From NCBI RefSeq assembly GCF_015708085.1, contig NZ_JADNYM010000015.1:1-64000 (forward strand): a stretch of 64,000 nucleotides of DNA, given 5' to 3'. Numbering within the stretch: the first letter of the stretch is position 1; each line of letters starts with the position of its first letter. This document shows, piece by piece, positions 95-11,633 of this stretch. This stretch comes from Arthrobacter terrae. GTDB lineage: Bacteria; Actinomycetota; Actinomycetes; Actinomycetales; Micrococcaceae. Under the pieces are notes generated by a model. That model worked only from the letters and a program-made list of their open reading frames with translations, was not told the origin of the DNA and made no database searches. A program made the position numbers and the translations under genes.

Positions 95-257
95 CCCACC
101 CCTTCAACAACCGATTATTTCCTCTACTCAATTATATAACAAAAAGGGCAAAATTAACACTCGCCCAGGCAACGAAACCCCGAGAACGCAGGGCATAGCC
201 ACACAGCCGACCATCTCATGTCAGGAGTCCTGGGCACTAGCCAGACCGGAGAATCAC

Positions 258-425
258 ATGCGTGGCTTGCTCAGCGCTGCTTCACCTGCGATCAGTCAAG
301 GAATTTACCTTAGCTGGGGCGCCGTATCCATCCAGTTGGGTAACTTGATCGTCATCGTCGTGATGCTCGTCCTTTTCATCTTGGCTTTAGTACTGCCGTT
401 TCCCGGTGGAAAGAGCCGAAAATGA
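258..425 (+). CDS. 55-residue single-span membrane protein, first gene of the cytochrome b operon
   Basis: This is a short gene. It starts at an ATG preceded by GGAG at 248-251 and ends in an ATGA overlap with the cytochrome b gene at 422, so the two are probably translationally coupled. The protein has a polar N-terminus of about 25 residues and then one strong hydrophobic segment (about residues 26-48, rich in Ile, Val and Leu), ending Gly-Gly-Lys-Ser-Arg-Lys. That pattern suits an N-out/C-in helix with a positively charged cytosolic tail. I do not recognise a named family. Its position suggests a small accessory subunit of the neighbouring b-type cytochrome, as seen in many respiratory complexes; that role is inferred. 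Confidence 0.7.
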   Translation: MRGLLSAASPAISQGIYLSWGAVSIQLGNLIVIVVMLVLFILALVLPFPGGKSRK

Positions 426-1138
426 GCACAGTCAAAGAGCCGACCCCAGCCACGGACCCAGACGTAGCCGGGACAAGCGCTCACACTTGGACGGGAAAAT
501 CGCGCGGCTGGTTCCTCAACCACCTCCCGCCGGACAAATTGCTGCCGGAGGACCAGCCAAGCTACGTCGCATCCTGGGCGTACGTGTTAGGGATGGGCGC
601 CGTTGCCGGGCTCGTCTTCGTGATCGCCTCAGGTTTCGTGCTCGCCCTCAACGGACCCCAGTGGTATCACGTGTCCTCTTTTGGCCACTTCGTCAACAGC
701 ATGCACCTGTGGAGCGTTGAACTGTTCTTCATGTTCCTCGTCGTCCACCTCTGGATCAAATTCTGGATGGCCGCATGGCGTGGCGGCCGGATTCTCACCT
801 GGATCACCGGCATGGTGTCATTTCTCGTCTCCGTTGTCACGGCGTTCACCGGCTATCTTTTGCAGACGAATTTTGATTCCCAATGGATTGCCTTCCAGGC
901 CAAGGACGCCTTGAACGCCGTCGGGGTCGGGGCGTGGTTCAACGTCGCCAACGTGGGGCAAATCTTCATGTGGCACATCGCCTTACTCCCGCTGGCCGTT
1001 GGCGCTGTCGTCGCGTTGCGTGTGCTGCTCGTCCGCGCGCACGGGGTGGTCCCGCCGCTGGACGCAGCCGAGACCGACACACAGCTCCGCGAGACCACCC
1101 CGCCGAAACTAGCCCGGGGGCGAATCAACCATGAGTAA
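422..1138 (+). CDS. b6-like cytochrome b (N-terminal domain only) lacking one heme-ligand histidine
   Basis: A 238-residue, four-helix protein related to the N-terminal half of cytochrome b/b6. Helix B carries the two histidines 14 residues apart (Met-His-Leu-Trp ... Val-Val-His-Leu-Trp) and helix D begins Trp-His-Ile-Ala-Leu-Leu-Pro. Aligned to b6 on the Leu-Pro and Arg-x-x-Gly anchors, the position of the second helix D histidine is arginine, so the high-potential (bH-type) heme would lack one axial ligand. A histidine seven residues later is the only nearby substitute. There is no C-terminal quinol-site half (no PEWY segment) in the window. It overlaps the next gene by 8 bases. It is probably a heme-binding quinone or electron-transfer subunit; the partners and substrate are inferred. 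Confidence 0.8.
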   Translation: MSTVKEPTPATDPDVAGTSAHTWTGKSRGWFLNHLPPDKLLPEDQPSYVASWAYVLGMGAVAGLVFVIASGFVLALNGPQWYHVSSFGHFVNSMHLWSVELFFMFLVVHLWIKFWMAAWRGGRILTWITGMVSFLVSVVTAFTGYLLQTNFDSQWIAFQAKDALNAVGVGAWFNVANVGQIFMWHIALLPLAVGAVVALRVLLVRAHGVVPPLDAAETDTQLRETTPPKLARGRINHE

Positions 1139-2084
1139 GGCCCCGTCGCCGATGTCGTGGCGCAGAGGCGACAATATCGCCGGCAGGCCCTGGCGCGGAC
1201 GTGTGAGGGACTACGACCTGTTCAAGGAGCTCGTCATTGGTGTGGTCGTCGTCGGTCTGCTCGTGGTGGGACTTTCGGCCGTCTTCAGTTCGCCTGACGA
1301 TCCGGGGGTGACGCTGAAATCATGGGCGACCGTGGCGCCGTCGGACTTTATCGCGACGGCAACAGCAGAACTCGGCGGAACCAGCGACACGGCCGCCTAT
1401 GGCCAGCCCTACAGCGCGACGCCCGATGCCACCCAGAAACTCGGGTTCATCGACCTGCAGGCCCTATCCGGAGTGCGCATCCCCATTGACACCGCCAACG
1501 ACTTCGTTCTCACTCCGCTTAAAACGCTGCCCACCCCACCACCGGCACTGGCCATCTGGAGCGCCGCCACCGCCCAAGAGCAGACAAAATGGACTACCGA
1601 CTACGCGACCGCCCTGGCGGCCGTCACCAATGGCGACCCGGCCCAAGTGGCGCCCGGCGACTACGGGCCTGTCCCGGCCCTGACTGGCGCGTTGCTGACC
1701 ATGGCTGGAAGCGGAAACCTCGACGGCGTCCTGCAGAGCGGCGGCCAGCCCTACAACCTGAACTACACGCCCACGATCCTGTTCCTGGGCGACGGCACTT
1801 ACTTTGCCGGCCTGGCCGACGCGGCGCACCTGACCGGCGATCAATGGGGCGTGATGAACGAAACAGGCAACACCCCGGGCCAATCCTGGCTGTGGCTCTT
1901 CTCGTTGTCCTACCAGATCCCGCCGTTCAACTCCTCCCCCAACGCGGACATCCTTGTCGTCGCCGTCATGGTGGGACTCTCCCTGTTGCTGACCCTGCTC
2001 CCGTTCATCCCCGGCTTGCGATCGGTGCCACGGAAAATACCCGTTTACCGATTGATCTGGAAGGACTACTACCGGAACCGGTGA
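1131..2084 (+). CDS. Two-helix membrane protein with a large exported domain, partner of the b-type cytochrome
   Basis: A 317-residue protein with a charged N-terminus, a transmembrane helix at about 31-52, an exported domain of roughly 215 residues and a second helix at about 272-296. A basic tail (Arg-Ser-Val-Pro-Arg-Lys ... Lys-Asp-Tyr-Tyr-Arg) follows and looks like the cytosolic end of a cytochrome b/c-type subunit. There is no CxxCH heme c motif, no cysteine cluster and no recognisable cofactor site in the exported part. The start overlaps the end of the cytochrome b gene by 8 bases, which implies coupled synthesis and a shared complex. I do not recognise the family; topologically it could take the place of the large exported subunit of a quinol oxidoreductase. 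Confidence 0.75.
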   Translation: MSKAPSPMSWRRGDNIAGRPWRGRVRDYDLFKELVIGVVVVGLLVVGLSAVFSSPDDPGVTLKSWATVAPSDFIATATAELGGTSDTAAYGQPYSATPDATQKLGFIDLQALSGVRIPIDTANDFVLTPLKTLPTPPPALAIWSAATAQEQTKWTTDYATALAAVTNGDPAQVAPGDYGPVPALTGALLTMAGSGNLDGVLQSGGQPYNLNYTPTILFLGDGTYFAGLADAAHLTGDQWGVMNETGNTPGQSWLWLFSLSYQIPPFNSSPNADILVVAVMVGLSLLLTLLPFIPGLRSVPRKIPVYRLIWKDYYRNR

Positions 2085-2136
2085 CCAGCGGGAGTGCCAG
2101 GAAGCAGCCGCGATGTTTCGGCCGTCCAGTACACGC

Positions 2137-2379
2137 CTACTGCCCGAAGCCAGCGACTTGATTGGCGAGGCTGAGAGCCATCTTTGGGCACAGATAAACG
2201 GCCTCCCGTGCCGCTTCGGAGTGGGCGGGACGGACGGCCACGTTGCTGCGGTCGCCGTTGGTTGCCCGTTTCGCGAGCGGGTATCCCCAGTCGTCGCGGT
2301 CCAACAAAGTGGGCAGGAGCTCGGTGCACAGCCCGCGCCCATCGCATCTGGTCCAGTCAATGTGCAGTGTCTCGCTCAT
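2137..2379 (-). CDS. 3Fe-4S-type ferredoxin
   Basis: An 80-residue ferredoxin with only three cluster cysteines: Cys12 and Cys18 in a Cys-Asp-Gly-Arg-Gly-Leu-Cys motif and Cys64 in Cys-Pro. This is the pattern of single 3Fe-4S ferredoxins of the kind that serve actinobacterial P450s. The ATG at 2379 is chosen because it forms an ATGA overlap with the stop of the NuoF-like gene; an upstream ATG at 2406 would overlap that gene more. It is the last gene of the minus-strand redox operon and converges on the cytochrome b operon 52 bases away. It probably shuttles electrons between the NuoF-like flavoprotein and a membrane partner. Confidence 0.85.
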   Translation of the reverse strand: MSETLHIDWTRCDGRGLCTELLPTLLDRDDWGYPLAKRATNGDRSNVAVRPAHSEAAREAVYLCPKMALSLANQVAGFGQ

Positions 2380-3629
2380 GACCGTCGGCCCATTCTCTTC
2401 GTACACGTCCCGGCCAGGTGCGCAGCTACCTCCGCGGAAAACGCCTCAAGAGCGCTGCCCACCAGTTGTGCTGCGCCATCCGGATGGTGGCACGCACCGC
2501 GGCCCGTGACCATTCGGCTGAGCCTTCCCAATTCGCGAACCAGCTGCGGATCGCGGCCGCCGTAGGCAAGCGAGTTCAAGACGCGCGCCATGGCGGGAAG
2601 GCCATACATACATGGGCCACACTGCTTGGCCGACTCGTTGGCCAGATACCCGACAATCTGTGCCGTGGTCTCTAAACCGCACACTGAGTCCGGGAGTGCA
2701 TGGACCACGCCGGCACCTGGCCTGACCGTATGGCTAGCCGGCCCCGTGGGGGACAACCGGTAGCCCATCGGCCGGACCCAGCGCCCGTGATACCCGCCGA
2801 CCAAAACGGCCTGGATGCTCGAAGTATCAATATCGGCGCTGGAGAGCACATCGCCCAGGCCCGCATCACCGGCCACTTCAAGAAGACGATCGCCGGCCGG
2901 CCCCGAGACGGAAACCAGCCTGGTGCCGGGATCCCTGTCCGACCCCTCAGTGCGGAACCAAGCGGAGCCGTAGCGGGCGATCAGTGCCATGTGGGCGAGC
3001 GTTTCCACGTTCAACACCAACGTGGGACGGCCCTTAAACCCCGATTCGCTGAGCCGTCTCCGGTGGTCCGTCGGCAGCGCGGGGCCGTTGGCAATGCCGT
3101 TCACAACGGCACTGGCCTCGCCGGAGATGAACGTTTCGGGAGCTGCCACCAGGCGGATACTGCGGGAGTCATGGCGTTGCGCCAAGGCCCGCTCCACGGC
3201 GGGAAGGCCGGCGTCTGTCGCGTAGATGAACAATTGGCCGCCGGAGACTGCCCGCGCTGCCGTGAGCAATCCGTCGATCACCAGGTGGGGGGCGTGGGCC
3301 AGCAGCGCCTTGTCTTTGAAACTCAGCGGCTCACCCTCGGCACCATTGGCGATCACCACCGGCTTGCGTTCAAGGGGCGCTCCGGAACGGGCATCCACCG
3401 TGGCGGCGATCTTTCGCCATGAGGCGAAAGCCGCCCCTCCGCGTCCGGTCAACCCGGAGGCTTCCACAACGTCGATGAGGCGCGCGTCGACGCCGTGCAA
3501 GGGCAACGCGCCAAAAGTTTGGACATGCTCGGCAAGCCCGGCATCGTTTCCGGCGGCAAACAGGCGGTGCGTCCCGGAGGGGCCCTGGCGATCCACGACC
3601 TTGGGCATTTCGGCGGTCACGGGTGTCAT
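2376..3629 (-). CDS. NuoF-like NADH-binding flavoprotein with SLBB domain
   Basis: A 417-residue protein of the NuoF/SLBB superfamily, normally the FMN- and NADH-binding subunit of respiratory complex I. Visible motifs are Gly-Leu-Thr-Gly-Arg-Gly-Gly-Ala-Ala-Phe (about 59-68) and Asn-Gly-Ala-Glu-Gly-Glu-Pro (about 95-101), which match the FMN and NADH loops. A central SLBB-like segment follows, then a C-terminal Fe-S region. There Cys337, Cys340 and Cys380 are present, but the first cysteine of the usual four is Ala334. The ATG at 3629 has a GGAGG ribosome site and an ATGA overlap with the upstream gene. No other complex I gene is nearby, so it works outside complex I, probably feeding NADH electrons to the ferredoxin or to the diheme protein. 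Confidence 0.85.
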   Translation of the reverse strand: MTPVTAEMPKVVDRQGPSGTHRLFAAGNDAGLAEHVQTFGALPLHGVDARLIDVVEASGLTGRGGAAFASWRKIAATVDARSGAPLERKPVVIANGAEGEPLSFKDKALLAHAPHLVIDGLLTAARAVSGGQLFIYATDAGLPAVERALAQRHDSRSIRLVAAPETFISGEASAVVNGIANGPALPTDHRRRLSESGFKGRPTLVLNVETLAHMALIARYGSAWFRTEGSDRDPGTRLVSVSGPAGDRLLEVAGDAGLGDVLSSADIDTSSIQAVLVGGYHGRWVRPMGYRLSPTGPASHTVRPGAGVVHALPDSVCGLETTAQIVGYLANESAKQCGPCMYGLPAMARVLNSLAYGGRDPQLVRELGRLSRMVTGRGACHHPDGAAQLVGSALEAFSAEVAAHLAGTCTKRMGRRS

Positions 3630-4183
3630 AGCAGGCCTCCTTGGCGGGTTTTGGCGGTTTCCAAAAAGTTGGCCGAGACACGCCACGCGAGCGCACCAAC
3701 GACGACTGCCGCGGAACCGGCGGCCAGCAGAAGGAACCACCTGCTGGTTCCGTTCGTACCGTTGCCGATCGCATGGGCCAGTGCGATCGGCCACATCGCG
3801 TAGGTGAACCAGTGCACCGCTCGAAAGGTCCGCGGTCCGATGCGGTGCCGAAGGAGACTAGTGACAACGACAGCCAGCACCAGGTCAAAAGCCACGGTGC
3901 CTAGTCCCTGCCAGAACGGCCTGAACGGTCCCAAGAACGGCACGACGACGTCGGTCACGTTCAGTTTCGCGTAGGAGTCCAGCATCAGGGAGCCGACGTG
4001 GAGGACAAGAAACGCCGTGGCCAGCAAGGCAATATTGCGATGGATCAGGGTGACCGAGAACCGGGGAACGACCAGCAGCGGCCTGCCGGAACGGGCCAAG
4101 ACCCCCACGAGGACGGTACCCGTGAACAAAACGAGGGAAATGATGCCACTCACCCGGCCAAAGGCCCATAGCGCATTATCCAA
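3626..4183 (-). CDS. Ferric-reductase-like diheme membrane protein (FRD/YedZ fold)
   Basis: A 185-residue membrane protein with about six helices. Two helices each carry a histidine pair: Leu-Ile-His-Arg-Asn ... Val-Leu-His-Val-Gly, and Ala-Val-His-Trp-Phe ... Leu-Ala-His-Ala-Ile. This is the bis-His arrangement that carries two b hemes in ferric-reductase-like and MsrQ/YedZ proteins. No FAD or NAD domain is attached, so it needs a separate reductant. The start is taken as TTG at 4183, which overlaps the apbE stop by 8 bases, because no ATG or GTG lies in the right frame nearby. It probably passes electrons across the membrane from the NuoF-like/ferredoxin pair. Confidence 0.83.
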   Translation of the reverse strand: MDNALWAFGRVSGIISLVLFTGTVLVGVLARSGRPLLVVPRFSVTLIHRNIALLATAFLVLHVGSLMLDSYAKLNVTDVVVPFLGPFRPFWQGLGTVAFDLVLAVVVTSLLRHRIGPRTFRAVHWFTYAMWPIALAHAIGNGTNGTSRWFLLLAAGSAAVVVGALAWRVSANFLETAKTRQGGLL

Positions 4184-5129
4184 GGAATTGCGCTCCCGCC
4201 TGGGCCATGGTCCCCCGGAATTCTTCCCTGGGCCAGCCGCCGGTGGTGACAACCCTTCCCTGCTGGTCGACAAGGCGTGCCGCAACGCCGCTGCGCTGGA
4301 ACCAGTCCACGGCAGCGAAGCCACGGACCACGCCGGCGGTGCTGGACGCATTGGCCCGCAGACAGGAGGCCTCCGCCACCGTGACGGACCGCCAGACGGG
4401 TTCGGCAGGGAGCCCGAAGCGGGGGTCAAGAATATGGTGGACGGATCGGCCCGCGTGCTGCCAACGGCGTTTTTGGGTACTCGAGGTGGCCATGGCATAA
4501 CCAGCAGCCACGGTGACCTGCTGCGCGGGGTCATCGGGGAGGTCCTGGACGAGGACCTGCCAGCCGCCCTCCGGTGCCGGGCCCGCCGTGGCAATGTCGC
4601 CGCCCAGGCAGACCAACACCCCACATCCCAGTTCGGCAGATACGAGGGCCGCGGCATGGTCGGCCGCGACAGCCTTGGCGCTTGCCCCCAGATCCAGTCG
4701 AAGGCCGTCAGGCACCGTCAGGACGTCGTCTTCGAGGTGCACCCGGGACCATCCGGTCCCGCGGGGCGCCGGCTGAGCACCCGGCGTGTCTGGGCCGGAT
4801 GGCCGGAGCCGCACCACGGCGATGTCGCGATCGTAGCCGAGGGCGTCGAGCTCATTGCCGAGAGTCGGGTCCACGTCACCGCCGCTCCAACGTGCCGCGT
4901 CAAGTGCGCCCGCGACCAGCACTGCCAACCAGGGGCTGATTTGGGCCCCGGCAGAGAGATCCGGCTGGATCCGGGCCAATTCGGAATCCGCGCGGAACCG
5001 GCTGCAAGCGGCATCGACGTCAGCAAGCACGGCACGGACCAGGCTGCTTGCCTTGCCGGTGAGGGAGGAATCGGTGACGGCGATGGATGCGTCTAACCCC
5101 CATACCGTCCACGCAGCGCCCCCTGTCAT
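4176..5129 (-). CDS. apbE: ApbE-type FAD:protein FMN transferase
   Basis: A protein of about 317 residues matching ApbE, which covalently attaches FMN to Ser/Thr of exported redox proteins. Matching segments are Phe-Arg-Ala-Asp-Ser-Glu-Leu-Ala-Arg-Ile near the N-terminus, Asp-Leu-Gly-Ala-Ser-Ala-Lys-Ala-Val-Ala (the family's DLGxxAKG-like motif), Cys-Leu-Gly-Gly-Asp-Ile, and His-His-Ile-Leu-Asp-Pro-Arg. The ATG at 5129 lies one base after the stop of the small exported protein; an alternative in-frame ATG at 5153 has no better ribosome site. No signal peptide is evident at either start. No clear FMN-accepting motif was found in neighbouring proteins, so its target is not visible here. Confidence 0.87.
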   Translation of the reverse strand: MTGGAAWTVWGLDASIAVTDSSLTGKASSLVRAVLADVDAACSRFRADSELARIQPDLSAGAQISPWLAVLVAGALDAARWSGGDVDPTLGNELDALGYDRDIAVVRLRPSGPDTPGAQPAPRGTGWSRVHLEDDVLTVPDGLRLDLGASAKAVAADHAAALVSAELGCGVLVCLGGDIATAGPAPEGGWQVLVQDLPDDPAQQVTVAAGYAMATSSTQKRRWQHAGRSVHHILDPRFGLPAEPVWRSVTVAEASCLRANASSTAGVVRGFAAVDWFQRSGVAARLVDQQGRVVTTGGWPREEFRGTMAQAGAQFLG

Positions 5130-5130
5130 C

Positions 5131-5394
5131 TCAGGACCCCGAGGAGCGGCCATGGACGGTCCGGCCTGTGCCGGGCTCAACCGCGCTGCCGACGGAATCG
5201 CCGGCGCCCTGGCCCCCGGACGGATTCTGCGACGACCCGCCGTCCTGGCTGGTGACGGAGGTCGTCGCGGCCGCGTGGCTCGGTGTGGCCATATCAACCG
5301 CCACCGCGGCGATGCCGGCTGTGGCCAAGCTTCCGGCCGTGACTGCCGTGGTGATGCGAGCGGCCCACTGCCTGCCGCTGATTTGTGTGTCCAT
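5131..5394 (-). CDS. Small exported protein with a low-complexity tail
   Basis: An 87-residue protein. It starts at an ATG with a good ribosome site (AGGAGAGGAC immediately upstream). The N-terminus has Arg residues and then a hydrophobic stretch ending Ser-His-Ala-Ala-Ala, which looks like a signal peptide or membrane anchor. The rest is a Gly/Ser/Gln-rich linker with no domain. Flavinylated FMN-bind proteins often have exactly this start (signal plus Ser/Gly linker) followed by a domain of about 90 residues, which is absent here. It may therefore be a truncated FMN-bind protein or an unrelated lipoprotein-like peptide. It sits directly upstream of apbE, probably in the same transcript. Confidence 0.6.
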   Translation of the reverse strand: MDTQISGRQWAARITTAVTAGSLATAGIAAVAVDMATPSHAAATTSVTSQDGGSSQNPSGGQGAGDSVGSAVEPGTGRTVHGRSSGS

Positions 5395-5485
5395 GGTCCT
5401 CTCCTGTCCTCGAAACGACGAACTGTCTACATTCATCATGCGCGCAGTTTCTTTGCGCTTTCTTAGACGGCGCTGGGCGCTGGCT

Positions 5486-6709
5486 TCATTGTTCGGCCAG
5501 CGGCAACGTCACGTTGACGCTGGCGCCCCCTCCCCCCGCAGCGCGTTCCACCGCGATCGTGCCGTTGTGCCGTGCAACAATCTCCGCGACCAGGGCCAGT
5601 CCGAGTCCGTAGTGGCGCGCCATGCCTGGGTCACTCGCGACGGGCCTGGCCGATGCAAAACGCTCGAACAGCCGTGCGGAGGTTTCGGAGTCAAAGCCGG
5701 GCCCGTCGTCGATGACACGGATGACGGCATCGCCCCCCTGCCGGGCCACCGCAACCTCAACGCTGGTTTCGGCGTGGTCAAGGGCGTTGGCGAGCAACGC
5801 GGTGAAGACGCGCTGCAATGCCACATCCGAGCCGCGGACACTGACCGTTTCGGCGGAACCGGAACGCGTGAGCCGGATGGTTCGTTGTTGGGCTTCCGGC
5901 CCGGCCTGGGACACTGCCTGCCGGGCCAGGCTGACAAGGTTCACCACGGTGTAGGTCACCGTCTCGCGTGGATCCGCCGAAAGGAGCAGGTCATCCAGGA
6001 TCCCGGTGAGCCTCCTTGAGTCCTCGACCAGCTTGGCCACCGCGGCCGTCACGTCATTCTGGCACGGCTTGGTCTCGTCCCCGTTCAACTTTCGGTGCAA
6101 AAGCTGGGCGCGGGTGCTGATCAGCGTCAGCGGGGTCCGTAATTCATGGCTGGCGTCCGCGACGAACCGGCGCTGCAATGCCAGGCTCTCAGCCATAGGC
6201 CGCATCGCCCGACGGGCCATCAGGACGGAGAGGCCCGCAGCCAGCACAGCCGAGACGACAGCGGCGATAGTCATGGCCAGCAGCAACCGGGTGAGCTCTT
6301 CCTGGCCTTCATGACGGTCAACGGCTGCCTGGATGACCCTGCCGTCCCGGTAGGTGGTCAAAATCGTGTAAGACCTGCCACCGTTCGTGACGTTTTCCTG
6401 CTCCTCCTGCTGCGTCTGGGCCACCCGCTGGATCGCCGCGATGTCGGGCAACCCAGCCGGCTCCTCCCGCGAGCGCAGCACGTTCCCTCCCGTGCTGATT
6501 GCTACGAAGACCCCCAATGGCGCATCGGAGGGTGAGTCGATATGCATTGCATCTGCCAACGACCTGGTGGCTGACTCCTGAACACCGGCCGCCACAATTG
6601 AGTAGACGAGAGTGCCGACCAGGACGAAAAGAACGACGATCATGGTCGTGAGTTGCACGGCGAGCCGACGCACGGCGCGCCGAAGCTCAGAGGCGTCCCG
6701 GGGGGTCAA
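5486..6709 (-). CDS. Sensor histidine kinase of the redox locus
   Basis: A 407-residue membrane sensor kinase: helix at about 21-43, an exported sensor loop of about 100 residues, a second helix at about 143-163, a HisKA box with phosphoacceptor His188 (Ala-Ser-His-Glu-Leu-Arg-Thr-Pro-Leu), and a HATPase_c domain with N box (Ala-Asn-Ala-Leu-Asp-His), G1 (Asp-Asp-Gly-Pro-Gly-Phe) and G2 (Gly-Leu-Gly-Leu). The start codon is TTG at 6709, overlapping the response regulator stop by 4 bases. It probably senses an envelope signal and controls the redox operon directly downstream; the signal is unknown. Confidence 0.88.
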   Translation of the reverse strand: MTPRDASELRRAVRRLAVQLTTMIVVLFVLVGTLVYSIVAAGVQESATRSLADAMHIDSPSDAPLGVFVAISTGGNVLRSREEPAGLPDIAAIQRVAQTQQEEQENVTNGGRSYTILTTYRDGRVIQAAVDRHEGQEELTRLLLAMTIAAVVSAVLAAGLSVLMARRAMRPMAESLALQRRFVADASHELRTPLTLISTRAQLLHRKLNGDETKPCQNDVTAAVAKLVEDSRRLTGILDDLLLSADPRETVTYTVVNLVSLARQAVSQAGPEAQQRTIRLTRSGSAETVSVRGSDVALQRVFTALLANALDHAETSVEVAVARQGGDAVIRVIDDGPGFDSETSARLFERFASARPVASDPGMARHYGLGLALVAEIVARHNGTIAVERAAGGGGASVNVTLPLAEQ

Positions 6710-7374
6710 GCTATGGGCCCCAGACGGTAACCCACGCCCCGCACCGTCATAACAACGGGTCTGCCCAACTTTTTACGCAGGTAGTGCACATAGGTATCAA
6801 CAACGCCTTCGTCGTCGGCCTCGGTAAAGACACTGCCAATGAGGGCATCGCGGGTGAAAATCTGCCGCGGCCGGCGCGCCAGATGCAGCAGTAATTCGTT
6901 TTCCCGTTCGGAAAGCACAACGACGCCACCACCGTCCAGGGTGACGGTGCGGCTCGTGCCCTCCAGCAGTCCACCGGGCACTCGCACCGCGTCCGAGACT
7001 GCAGCATGCCGGCGCAGCAGGGACCTCAGCCGGGCCAGCAGCTCGTCGATGTCAAACGGTTTGCCCAGATAATCCTCGGCACCCCGGTCCAGTCCCTCGA
7101 CCCGGTCCGAAGGGTTGCTCAGTGCCGACAGGATCAGCGCCGGCGTGGTGACACCCTTGGCACGCAGCCGGCCTAGAACATCCAGTCCATCGAGCCCCGG
7201 CAGCCCACGGTCCAGCAGCAGAACGTCGAAACGCCGGCTCAACCCCGCATGCAGGGCACGCTGGCCATCGTGCACCACTGTCACGAAATACCTCTCGCTT
7301 TCAAGAAGTTCCTGCAGCATGGAAGCAAGCCCGGCGTCATCCTCGACCACCAGCACACTACGTTCGTCCGCCAT
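6706..7374 (-). CDS. OmpR-family response regulator
   Basis: A 222-residue regulator with an N-terminal receiver domain (acid pocket Asp12-Asp13, phosphoacceptor Asp55 in Leu-Leu-Leu-Asp-Arg-Gly-Leu-Pro-Gly, Lys in Gly-Lys-Pro-Phe near 105) and a C-terminal winged-helix DNA-binding domain ending Val-Arg-Gly-Val-Gly-Tyr-Arg-Leu. The ATG at 7374 is preferred to an in-frame codon at 7407 because the receiver fold begins right after it. It is the first gene of the minus-strand run, transcribed with its kinase, and is the likely regulator of the apbE/FRD/NuoF-like genes. Confidence 0.9.
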   Translation of the reverse strand: MADERSVLVVEDDAGLASMLQELLESERYFVTVVHDGQRALHAGLSRRFDVLLLDRGLPGLDGLDVLGRLRAKGVTTPALILSALSNPSDRVEGLDRGAEDYLGKPFDIDELLARLRSLLRRHAAVSDAVRVPGGLLEGTSRTVTLDGGGVVVLSERENELLLHLARRPRQIFTRDALIGSVFTEADDEGVVDTYVHYLRKKLGRPVVMTVRGVGYRLGPIA

Positions 7375-10380: not shown

Positions 10381-11227
10381 CGAGAAATCCAGTGCCGAAG
10401 TTGATCCATAAGAAGCTCTTCCAGCCACCGTTCGCGGACTCGGCGGTTGCTTCGCTGATGAACCAGTATCGTGCGGCATTGGCTGCGTAAGGAAGGGCCA
10501 GGATGCCGGCAAGCGGACCAGGCCATGTGGTGCCAAGCATCAGCAGACCAGCAAGGATATAGGTGGACGCCGCGAGCCGCACCGTTGCCTTGCCGCCCAG
10601 CACCGTTGCGATGGAGCTGATGAACGCTTCTTTGTCCGCGCTGATGTCCTGGACGGCGCCAAAGGCGTGGCTGGCTACGCCCCAGAGAAAGAAAGCACCG
10701 AGCAGGCACCACAGTTGCGGGGTCCAGTTGGCATCTGCGAGGGTCAGTCCAAACACGGCCGGACTGACAAAGTGGGTGCTGGAAGTGACTGAGTCCAGGA
10801 AGGGGCGCTCTTTGAAACGCAGCCGTGGCGCGCTGTAGGCCAGGACGGCAAAGACGCTGATGACGAGGACCACCGCGGAGAGCGGATTGCCGACTGCAAA
10901 AAGGTAGATCAGGAAGGGCACATTGGTGATGGCCGCTGCCGCCAAGGTGGTGCGGTGCATGCCGCGTCCCAGTACGGCGCCTTCGATACCGCCCTTGCGT
11001 GGATTACGCAGATCGGACTCATAATCAAAGACGTCGTTGATGCCGTACATGGCCAGGTTATAGGGAATCAGGAAGTACACAATGCCGACGACGGCGGTCA
11101 GGTCCAGCCTGCCCGTGGCCAGCAGGTAGGCGGCGCCGAAAGGATAGGCCGTATTGACCCAGGAAACCGGCCGGGAGGAAACAACCAGCGTCCGGAACCG
11201 ATCAGGGGCAGTCCGCTGCTCAGTCAT
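10346..11227 (-). CDS. crtEb: Lycopene elongase, UbiA-type prenyltransferase
   Basis: A 293-residue integral membrane prenyltransferase with about eight helices and the two Asp-rich motifs of the UbiA family: Asn-Asp-Val-Phe-Asp-Tyr-Glu-Ser-Asp (64-72) and Asp-Ile-Ser-Ala-Asp (194-198). In C50 carotenoid clusters this enzyme adds two C5 units (from DMAPP) to lycopene, giving flavuxanthin-type products. The ATG overlaps the crtYf stop by 8 bases. It is the last gene of the crt operon, and its end overlaps the convergent glycosyltransferase. Confidence 0.88.
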   Translation of the reverse strand: MTEQRTAPDRFRTLVVSSRPVSWVNTAYPFGAAYLLATGRLDLTAVVGIVYFLIPYNLAMYGINDVFDYESDLRNPRKGGIEGAVLGRGMHRTTLAAAAITNVPFLIYLFAVGNPLSAVVLVISVFAVLAYSAPRLRFKERPFLDSVTSSTHFVSPAVFGLTLADANWTPQLWCLLGAFFLWGVASHAFGAVQDISADKEAFISSIATVLGGKATVRLAASTYILAGLLMLGTTWPGPLAGILALPYAANAARYWFISEATAESANGGWKSFLWINFGTGFLVTLLLIWYSLV

Positions 11228-11633
11228 GTGCTTCCTCTCGGTCAGCAGCTGTGCTGCTCCCTCGGTTGAACAACAGCCACAGAGCCGGCAGCAACAGCAC
11301 CGCCCCCAACGGGTAAGCGAAATCTTCCAGCGGCATCCGCCCGATCATGGGCCCGGAAATCTTATCGGCGCCGTAGCCAAAGAGGCCGGCGGAAATCATG
11401 ACGTTGTCAAAAACCGCTGTGAGAAGCAGCAGCACCGCGGCGGACACTGCCGCCGCGGCCATGCACATTTTCCCTGTTCTGCGCCGCGGTTCACTGTCCT
11501 GCAGCGCGCTGTCCCGCGGCCCGGTATGCTGCACACCGCTGCGCGGCCGCAAGTTCCGCAGAAACAGACCGATACCCAGTGCCACGGCACCGGCGGCCAG
11601 CAGAAATATAACATTCAGGGCCCAGTACGTCAT
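11220..11633 (-). CDS. crtYf: C50 carotenoid cyclase subunit CrtYf-like
   Basis: A 137-residue membrane protein of the lycopene-cyclase-domain family with about three helices. It includes Asp-Asn-Val-Met-Ile-Ser-Ala-Gly-Leu-Phe-Gly-Tyr and Met-Pro-Leu-Glu-Asp-Phe-Ala-Tyr-Pro, the conserved PxE(D/E)-type motif. Heterodimeric cyclases of this family work with a second small subunit. The ATG at 11633 makes an ATGA overlap with the preceding gene. The exact e/f assignment is taken from gene order (crtI-crtYe-crtYf-crtEb) and could be swapped. Confidence 0.82.
   Translation of the reverse strand: MTYWALNVIFLLAAGAVALGIGLFLRNLRPRSGVQHTGPRDSALQDSEPRRRTGKMCMAAAAVSAAVLLLLTAVFDNVMISAGLFGYGADKISGPMIGRMPLEDFAYPLGAVLLLPALWLLFNRGSSTAADREEAHD

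Follow-up and report, generated by a model that had tools for sequence, protein, structure and literature searches.

The extracellular electron transfer system of Listeria, which involves PplA and FmnB, places flavin on the outer side of a Gram-positive membrane, and PplA uses FMN_bind domains. Flavinylation clusters with an MsrQ-like protein have been described mainly from Actinobacteria (Méheust et al. 2021, PMC8238504). In the parts of that survey covered here, an FMN-binding domain gene is typical of MsrQ-like clusters, if not universal, 31 of the clusters include a NuoF-like protein, 153 are linked to VIT-family genes, and 4% (670) of the surveyed genomes have ApbE without a known substrate. 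The parts of PMC12052999 covered here describe attachment of flavin mononucleotide (FMN) to the last residue of a seven-residue motif, DxxSGA[S/T], report that artificial flavin tags perform best at a terminus, and name Ser, His, and Asp as conserved residues of the ApbE catalytic center; likewise in part, PMC8906456 reports that an Asp of FmnB coordinates both Mg ions and that Ala at such residues weakens or abolishes activity. Here, we describe a ten-gene locus at the start of a 64,000-nucleotide stretch of Arthrobacter terrae DNA (contig NZ_JADNYM010000015.1, positions 1 to 64,000; hereafter, the window), in which a minus-strand cassette encodes an ApbE with Asn at the position of that Asp and, upstream of it, a small exported protein that ends in a conserved [S/T]xGS tail.

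On the minus strand, the operon forms a conserved cassette composed of the small exported protein, ApbE, a membrane diheme protein (FRD), a NuoF-like protein, and a three-Cys ferredoxin (Table 1). Like the MsrQ-like clusters with NuoF in PMC8238504, it contains a PF01794 diheme protein, an ApbE, and a PF10589 donor, occurs in Actinobacteria, and is in some cases linked to VIT-family genes; unlike them, it has a small tailed protein instead of an FMN_bind gene, an Asn-type ApbE, and an adjoining plus-strand trio (P1-P2-P3) that includes a cytochrome b6-like protein. Because 31 such clusters were counted in the parts of PMC8238504 covered, the composition of the cassette is already known, and the claim made in an initial annotation of the window, that no complex of this kind had been described, can stand at most for the ten-gene whole. 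The gene content listed in that annotation was borne out: all ten open reading frames (ORFs) are present, and Pfam backs seven of them, with no match above the cut-off for P1, P3, or the small exported protein. The minus-strand overlaps are also as it described (8 bases between the ApbE and FRD genes, followed by two 4-base ATGA overlaps down to the ferredoxin gene). The conserved C-terminal tail and the change in the ApbE active site were both missing from it.

A search for the NuoF-like protein in 149 genomes of the family yielded 24 matches, one of which (G135, 31% identity, no ApbE match) was left out, leaving 23 cassette genomes. Matches to ApbE, FRD, NuoF, and ferredoxin were present in all 20 of the family neighborhoods fetched, such that the grouping of modules that use reduced nicotinamide adenine dinucleotide (NADH), heme, and flavinylation, as first annotated, corresponds to one conserved cassette. 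In a named collection, at least 589 stretches were scanned, 542 encoded a relative, and the best 80 gave 79 loci (L numbers). Within the stretch around each, a same-strand ApbE was found in 72/79 loci, FRD in 78/79, ferredoxin in 79/79, and a same-strand pair of response regulator (RR) and histidine kinase (HK) genes in 19/79. The loci without a same-strand ApbE are L097, L102, L126, L129, L133, L142, and L145, the last of which has an ApbE on the opposite strand; L097, with neither an ApbE nor an FRD match, was dropped from the tail tests. The residues expected to hold cofactors are strongly conserved: the four heme-ligand His residues of FRD are invariant in 78/78 aligned sequences, Cys 12, 18, and 64 of the ferredoxin are kept in 76/76, and Cys337, 340, and 380 in the iron-sulfur (Fe-S) region of the NuoF-like protein are kept in 21/21. 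Among the matches listed, Arthrobacter sp. H14-L1 (L076) has the nearest cassette, whose NuoF-like protein is 98% identical.

Positive charge at the N terminus, a single hydrophobic segment, and an arm rich in Ser, Gly, and Thr characterize the small protein. Its tail was first spotted by eye, and the upstream ORF was then chosen by rules blind to the C terminus (position, hydrophobic segment, positive charge on the N-terminal side, and disorder-type composition). When these rules were applied to the 79 loci and the window, one locus lacked the anchor gene, 12 yielded no ORF, and all 67 chosen ORFs, that of the window among them, ended in [S/T]xGS. The same ending occurs in 9/5229 other ORFs of these loci (a background unmatched for composition) and in 82/3551 internal four-residue segments of the same arms, and shuffling the last 60 residues gives approximately 1.6/67, which rules out Ser/Gly-rich composition alone as the source of the tail. 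ORFs chosen by the pattern itself carry the tail in 73/78 loci with an anchor; the misses include a masked stretch (L069), a contig edge (L091), and an apparent fusion of the small protein with apbE (L078, 4753-5391, where the small protein continues in frame into ApbE in a manner resembling a deletion fusion). In the set picked by the tail pattern, identity is 0.83 over the last four residues versus 0.21 over the preceding 40. The 74 unique members encode the tail Gly as GGG (32), GGA (22), GGC (13), or GGT (7) and the last Ser as TCC (53), TCG (16), TCA (4), or AGC (1), and because synonymous codons vary in this way, selection acts on the protein sequence of the tail. The tail is also not a by-product of overlap with the start of apbE: relative to the small-protein stop, the ApbE match begins at anywhere from -164 to +36 bases in most loci (and at -663 bases in L118, with FRD in between), the tail occurs before FRD without an adjoining apbE, and its synonymous codons vary. 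The possibility that the small protein is a hidden FMN_bind protein found no support in Pfam or NCBIfam.

The tail extends to plasmids and to other loci of the phylum. Five plasmid regions were fetched from 274 records with a NuoF-like match. An ApbE is annotated in four of them, from Cnuibacter, Rhodococcus (two), and Arthrobacter D5-1, and all four contain an ORF ending in [S/T]x[G/A]S and have Asn in ApbE (4/4); in the fifth, from Streptomyces, no ApbE is annotated and the stretch inspected contains no tail ORF. Twenty loci were then sampled phylum-wide, 11 of them with an adjoining ApbE-like gene, and 6 of these 11 carry the tail, one as TFAS. The tail precedes FRD in L242 and L243, with no ApbE within 12 kb, and precedes the NuoF-like gene in L247, which is without FRD or ApbE. 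No gene-strand tail was found in L248, L250, L254, or L258, which have FRD and a NuoF-like gene and no ApbE (a short opposite-strand ORF in L250 matches), and no tail was found in L256 or L257, which have only a NuoF-like gene and ferredoxin.

The ApbE encoded in the window has Asn at the position of Vc Asp285 and FmnB Asp301. The cassette-type ApbEs were delimited by bit score against a profile of cassette ApbEs, a score not determined by the Asp/Asn residue alone. Above 150 bits, 94/96 unique sequences have Asn, one has Glu (L245), and one has a gap; with Asn in L260 and a second Glu in L152, cassette-type ApbEs with a readable residue comprise 95 Asn and 2 Glu out of 97. All other readable ApbEs have Asp (31/31), with two more gaps among the 131 unique sequences in all. 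The Asp-type ApbEs (17 sequences longer than 200 amino acids) form a single separate clade with support of 1.0 in a tree rooted on cassette ApbE. Catalytic Ser and His, by contrast with the lost Asp, are intact in 97/98 rows, the remaining row being a gap (duplicates included). Six genomes with no same-strand ApbE in the cassette were searched, and all six encode a cassette-type ApbE elsewhere; for G151, the top match is the Glu-type L152, which adjoins a second, Asn-type ApbE (L157). Thus, like the characterized ApbE and FmnB proteins (PMC12052999 and PMC8906456, each in the parts covered), the cassette ApbE belongs to PF02424 and keeps the catalytic Ser and His, and, unlike them, it has Asn (rarely Glu) for the Mg-binding Asp and a candidate substrate without [S/T]GA[S/T]. 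The canonical [S/T]GA[S/T] motif is absent from all ten proteins of the locus, in which the tail reads SSGS. A literature search, mostly outside subscription journals, found no account of an [S/T]xGS tail or an Asn-type ApbE, and the new ApbE substrates in PMC11334425 include none of the terminal-tail kind in the parts covered. Both features seem to be new.

FMN_bind genes accompany the Asp-type ApbEs. Among the 149 family genomes, FMN_bind (PF04205) is present in 38 and ApbE in 66, and 45 of the 46 FMN_bind matches lie within approximately 1 kb of a non-cassette ApbE and none beside a cassette ApbE (from tables read by eye); the remaining match (G033) is in a genome without an ApbE match. The cassette ApbE is the sole ApbE match in 11 of the 23 family cassette genomes, and these 11 have no PF04205 match (DUF3570 was not searched for), and DUF2271 and NqrB/RnfD were each found in 0/11 of them. 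The A. terrae genome itself has no PF04205 match anywhere. A local FMN_bind profile built from seven sequences, which recovered 12 of its 14 source loci, found none in 24 further loci and none in the window.

The two convergent operons are found together in other genomes, and their relationship appears to be looser than the single ten-gene complex that had initially been annotated. P3, taken as the marker of the trio, is rare (9/149 family genomes and 11/396 phylum genomes), and 16/23 family cassette genomes are without it. A NuoF-like gene is present in 7/9 family genomes with P3 versus 17/140 others; of the nine, two have no NuoF-like gene and four have one that does not lie within approximately 10 kb of the trio. 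Across the phylum, with NuoF-like matches below 170 bits excluded (among them G238, at 141 bits; the limit was set after viewing the list), the counts are 7/11 versus 27/385 (p = 4.8e-6), falling to 2/6 versus 24/382 (p = 0.055) when one deep family is stripped of its eight NuoF-positive members. Counted by genus within the family, they are 4/5 versus 8/27 (p = 0.053). Co-occurrence is thus above chance but marginal once kinship is counted (p ~0.05). The trio lies within the stretch around 6/79 cassettes (L076, L091, L098, L117, L126, and L129), and in L076, L091, L126, and L129 it is convergent with, and abuts, the cassette. Comparison of the window with Arthrobacter sp. H14-L1 (L012) in 300-base bins revealed 96.7-99.7% identity over 301-6600, with the left edge of similarity at base 233; beyond this region, identity is 94% at 6601-6900 and 82-87% to 8100, the sequences are unalignable (50-57%) to 9600, and identity is 82-92% to 11400. 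Both operons have probably moved as one block (~233-6800) in a recent exchange with a break inside the RR gene, as judged from this profile, which supports a shared role for the operons and not a shared complex.

Taken together, these data suggest that the cluster probably carries electrons from the cell interior to the surface. Our best explanation, to which we give an even chance, is an NADH-driven exporter in which FMN is fixed by the Asn-type ApbE on the tail of a tethered protein; the flavinylation, electron route, acceptor, regulation, and role of the trio set out here are predictions from sequence. NADH would reduce the FMN and Fe-S center of the NuoF-like protein. From there, either directly or with the three-Cys ferredoxin as intermediary, electrons would reach the two FRD hemes and thus the outer face of the membrane. 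On the outside, they would be carried by the small protein, which combines a membrane anchor with a disordered Ser/Gly arm and the [S/T]xGS tail; because of its charged N terminus, hydrophobic segment, and arm, we infer that it is anchored or released with the tail outside. Apparently, nothing else in the cassette is exported, and apart from the tail no cofactor site is evident in the small protein, with a Cys after residue 40 in only 6/74 of them. The Asn-type ApbE would transfer FMN onto a hydroxyl of the tail. As in the canonical motif, positions -3, -1, and 0 of [S/T]x[G/A]S are occupied by a hydroxyl residue, a small residue, and the acceptor hydroxyl, respectively. The electrons would likely be passed to Fe(III) or another metal: VIT-family genes near 11/79 cassettes (a raw count with no background rate) and near two plasmid copies, taken with the 153 MsrQ-like clusters that PMC8238504 links to VIT genes (in the parts covered), point to iron. 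The two-component pair may control the exporter, and P1-P2-P3 may form an associated yet separable membrane unit that possibly provides a link to quinone.

The enzyme has lost a carboxylate and the substrate has gained a terminal one, a pairing that suggests either substrate-assisted catalysis or relief of repulsion. By extension, there could be a separate, Actinomycetota-wide branch of substrate-assisted flavinylation in which FMN is attached at the extreme C terminus of a disordered tether and the terminal carboxylate replaces, or is accommodated by, the missing Asp, a tentative idea that we think rather unlikely to hold in full. If the tail is indeed flavinylated, then a folded FMN domain would not be required for extracytosolic flavin electron transfer, unlike in Listeria PplA, as the candidate carrier here has only a short terminal tail; this tail would represent a natural C-terminal flavin tag, and the tail and Asn would serve as sequence marks for annotating such systems. 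The tail and matching enzyme variant also provide a concrete candidate substrate for some of the genomes with ApbE and no known one.

Several observations weigh against this explanation. ApbE without its Mg-binding Asp may be inactive, since the lost Asp is conserved and Ala replacements in FmnB are harmful, and the tail differs from canonical DxxSGA[S/T]. No signal peptide is visible in the window ApbE, and with the tail expected outside, modification would therefore be needed before export. No tail was found beside the cassette in L102 or L146 in the stretch inspected, nor beside the ApbE-like gene in L244 or L259. In L246, L249, and L252, the protein preceding an Asn-type ApbE ends in a Cys-flanked PSG loop; these deep-lineage proteins count against a strict terminal-Ser rule, do not fit the substrate-assisted idea in a simple way, and would need a second solution. 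Absence of FMN_bind is not proof, because PF04205 matches are near threshold in this family and members may be missed, and the local profile did detect FMN_bind near 3/79 cassettes (L117, L126, and L143). The VIT matches of this genome sit on contigs other than that of the window. In addition, the compared sequences are related by descent and are not independent.

Some of these observations would also be expected if the Asn-type ApbE were a pseudo-transferase that keeps flavin adenine dinucleotide as an electron-transfer or assembly subunit, with the tail acting as a docking peptide for FRD or ApbE. The lost Asp and non-canonical tail fit this proposal, and docking would account for the persistence of the tail beside FRD in L126, L129, L133, L142, and L145, which have no adjoining same-strand ApbE. 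Catalytic Ser and His are nonetheless kept in every readable row, and a docking role would apply to a protein that is the only exported one yet has no other evident cofactor site; we regard this alternative as doubtful. Alternatively, the cassette could be an ordinary MsrQ-like FMN_bind system in which FMN_bind is encoded elsewhere and the tail is unrelated to ApbE. FMN_bind is indeed encoded elsewhere in 12/23 family cassette genomes, a further point against flavinylation of the tail, but none was detected in the other 11, nearly every FMN_bind match lies beside another ApbE, and most loci have the tailed protein upstream of their cassette ApbE; we consider this alternative very improbable.

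That all ten genes encode one physical complex joining NADH, ferredoxin, hemes, and quinone would fit the linkage in six loci, the co-occurrence, and the presence of both operons within one high-identity block. The trio and cassette are usually apart, however, which lowers this reading, and the association is marginal after correction for kinship; we therefore consider a single complex improbable.

The positions of the features are given in Table 1. Gene starts were picked from overlaps and homology, resulting in slight shifts of start codons relative to the initial annotation. The window starts at base 1 of the contig, and the upstream side of the plus operon is out of view.

Table 1. Features of the two-operon locus in the A. 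terrae window.
Feature	Position	Strand	Basis
P1, 55-amino-acid protein with a single transmembrane segment, opens plus trio	258..425	+	ORF; nothing in Pfam above cut-off
P2, cytochrome b6-like (cytochrome b N-terminal half)	422..1138	+	PF13631, 54 bits
Arg codon, P2 residue 200, at expected fourth heme-ligand His	1019..1021	+	alignment
P3, 317 amino acids, no known family, helices ~30-51 and 272-292, helical middle	1131..2084	+	
Ferredoxin with three Cys, whose pattern indicates the 3Fe-4S type	2137..2379	-	PF13459 (Fer4_15)
NuoF-like NADH/FMN protein with Fe-S region	2376..3629	-	PF01512 (Complex1_51K), PF10589 (NADH_4Fe-4S)
FRD, MsrQ-like membrane diheme protein, TTG start	3626..4183	-	PF01794 (Ferric_reduct), 34.5 bits
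ApbE paralogue, Asn-type	4176..5129	-	PF02424, 153 bits
Asn codon at catalytic Mg-binding Asp position of ApbE	4350..4352	-	alignments
Small exported protein, Ser/Gly-rich, 87 amino acids	5131..5394	-	ORF, ribosome-binding-like site, homologues upstream of apbE
SSGS tail of small protein, C-terminal, proposed flavinylation site	5134..5145	-	[S/T]xGS conservation
Sensor histidine kinase (HK), TTG start	5486..6709	-	PF00512 (HisKA), PF02518 (HATPase)
OmpR-type response regulator (RR)	6706..7374	-	PF00072, PF00486; high-identity block ends within

Within the trio, the order P1-b6-P3 is kept in 8/8 other family loci. P2 aligns with cytochrome b6 and ExtP, and its profile finds cytochrome b/b6 chains of solved structure (best E 1.3e-10); it falls far under the NCBIfam cut-offs, and its partner P3 matches no known family. 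The position of P2 residue 200 is one that we take to be a heme-ligand site of cytochrome b6. The His expected there is kept in 12/12 aligned relatives, and Arg is restricted to the window copy, which rules out loss of this ligand as a trait of the b6 family; the Arg may be a true change or an assembly error. The AlphaFold model of P3 has a mean predicted local distance difference test score of 54.6, with the middle (~130-200) at 80-92, and as a query this poor model gave no Foldseek match below E 1. There is no sequence-level support for P3 as a Rieske protein or cytochrome b C-terminal subunit, and neither P1 nor P3 matches a Rieske or heme-binding family (partners encoded outside the trio lay beyond this search). 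P3 had no match in the plasmid collection, and plasmid carriage of the trio was rejected.

The neighbors of the trio point to no single function. A phosphoketolase gene is located beside it in L013 and L016 (Pfam), a universal stress protein gene is nearby in both (by Pfam in L013 and by clustering in L016), and a P-type cation ATPase gene is near in L013. In a deep lineage, genes for heme A synthase, UbiA-type proteins, and redoxins lie near the trio (L205, by Pfam, and L207, by clustering), and in L117 an FMN_bind gene (10714-11352) adjoins P3. Two records titled Sporosarcina and Acidobacteria (L086 and L091) contain Arthrobacter-like cassettes and are possibly mislabeled or contaminated assemblies.

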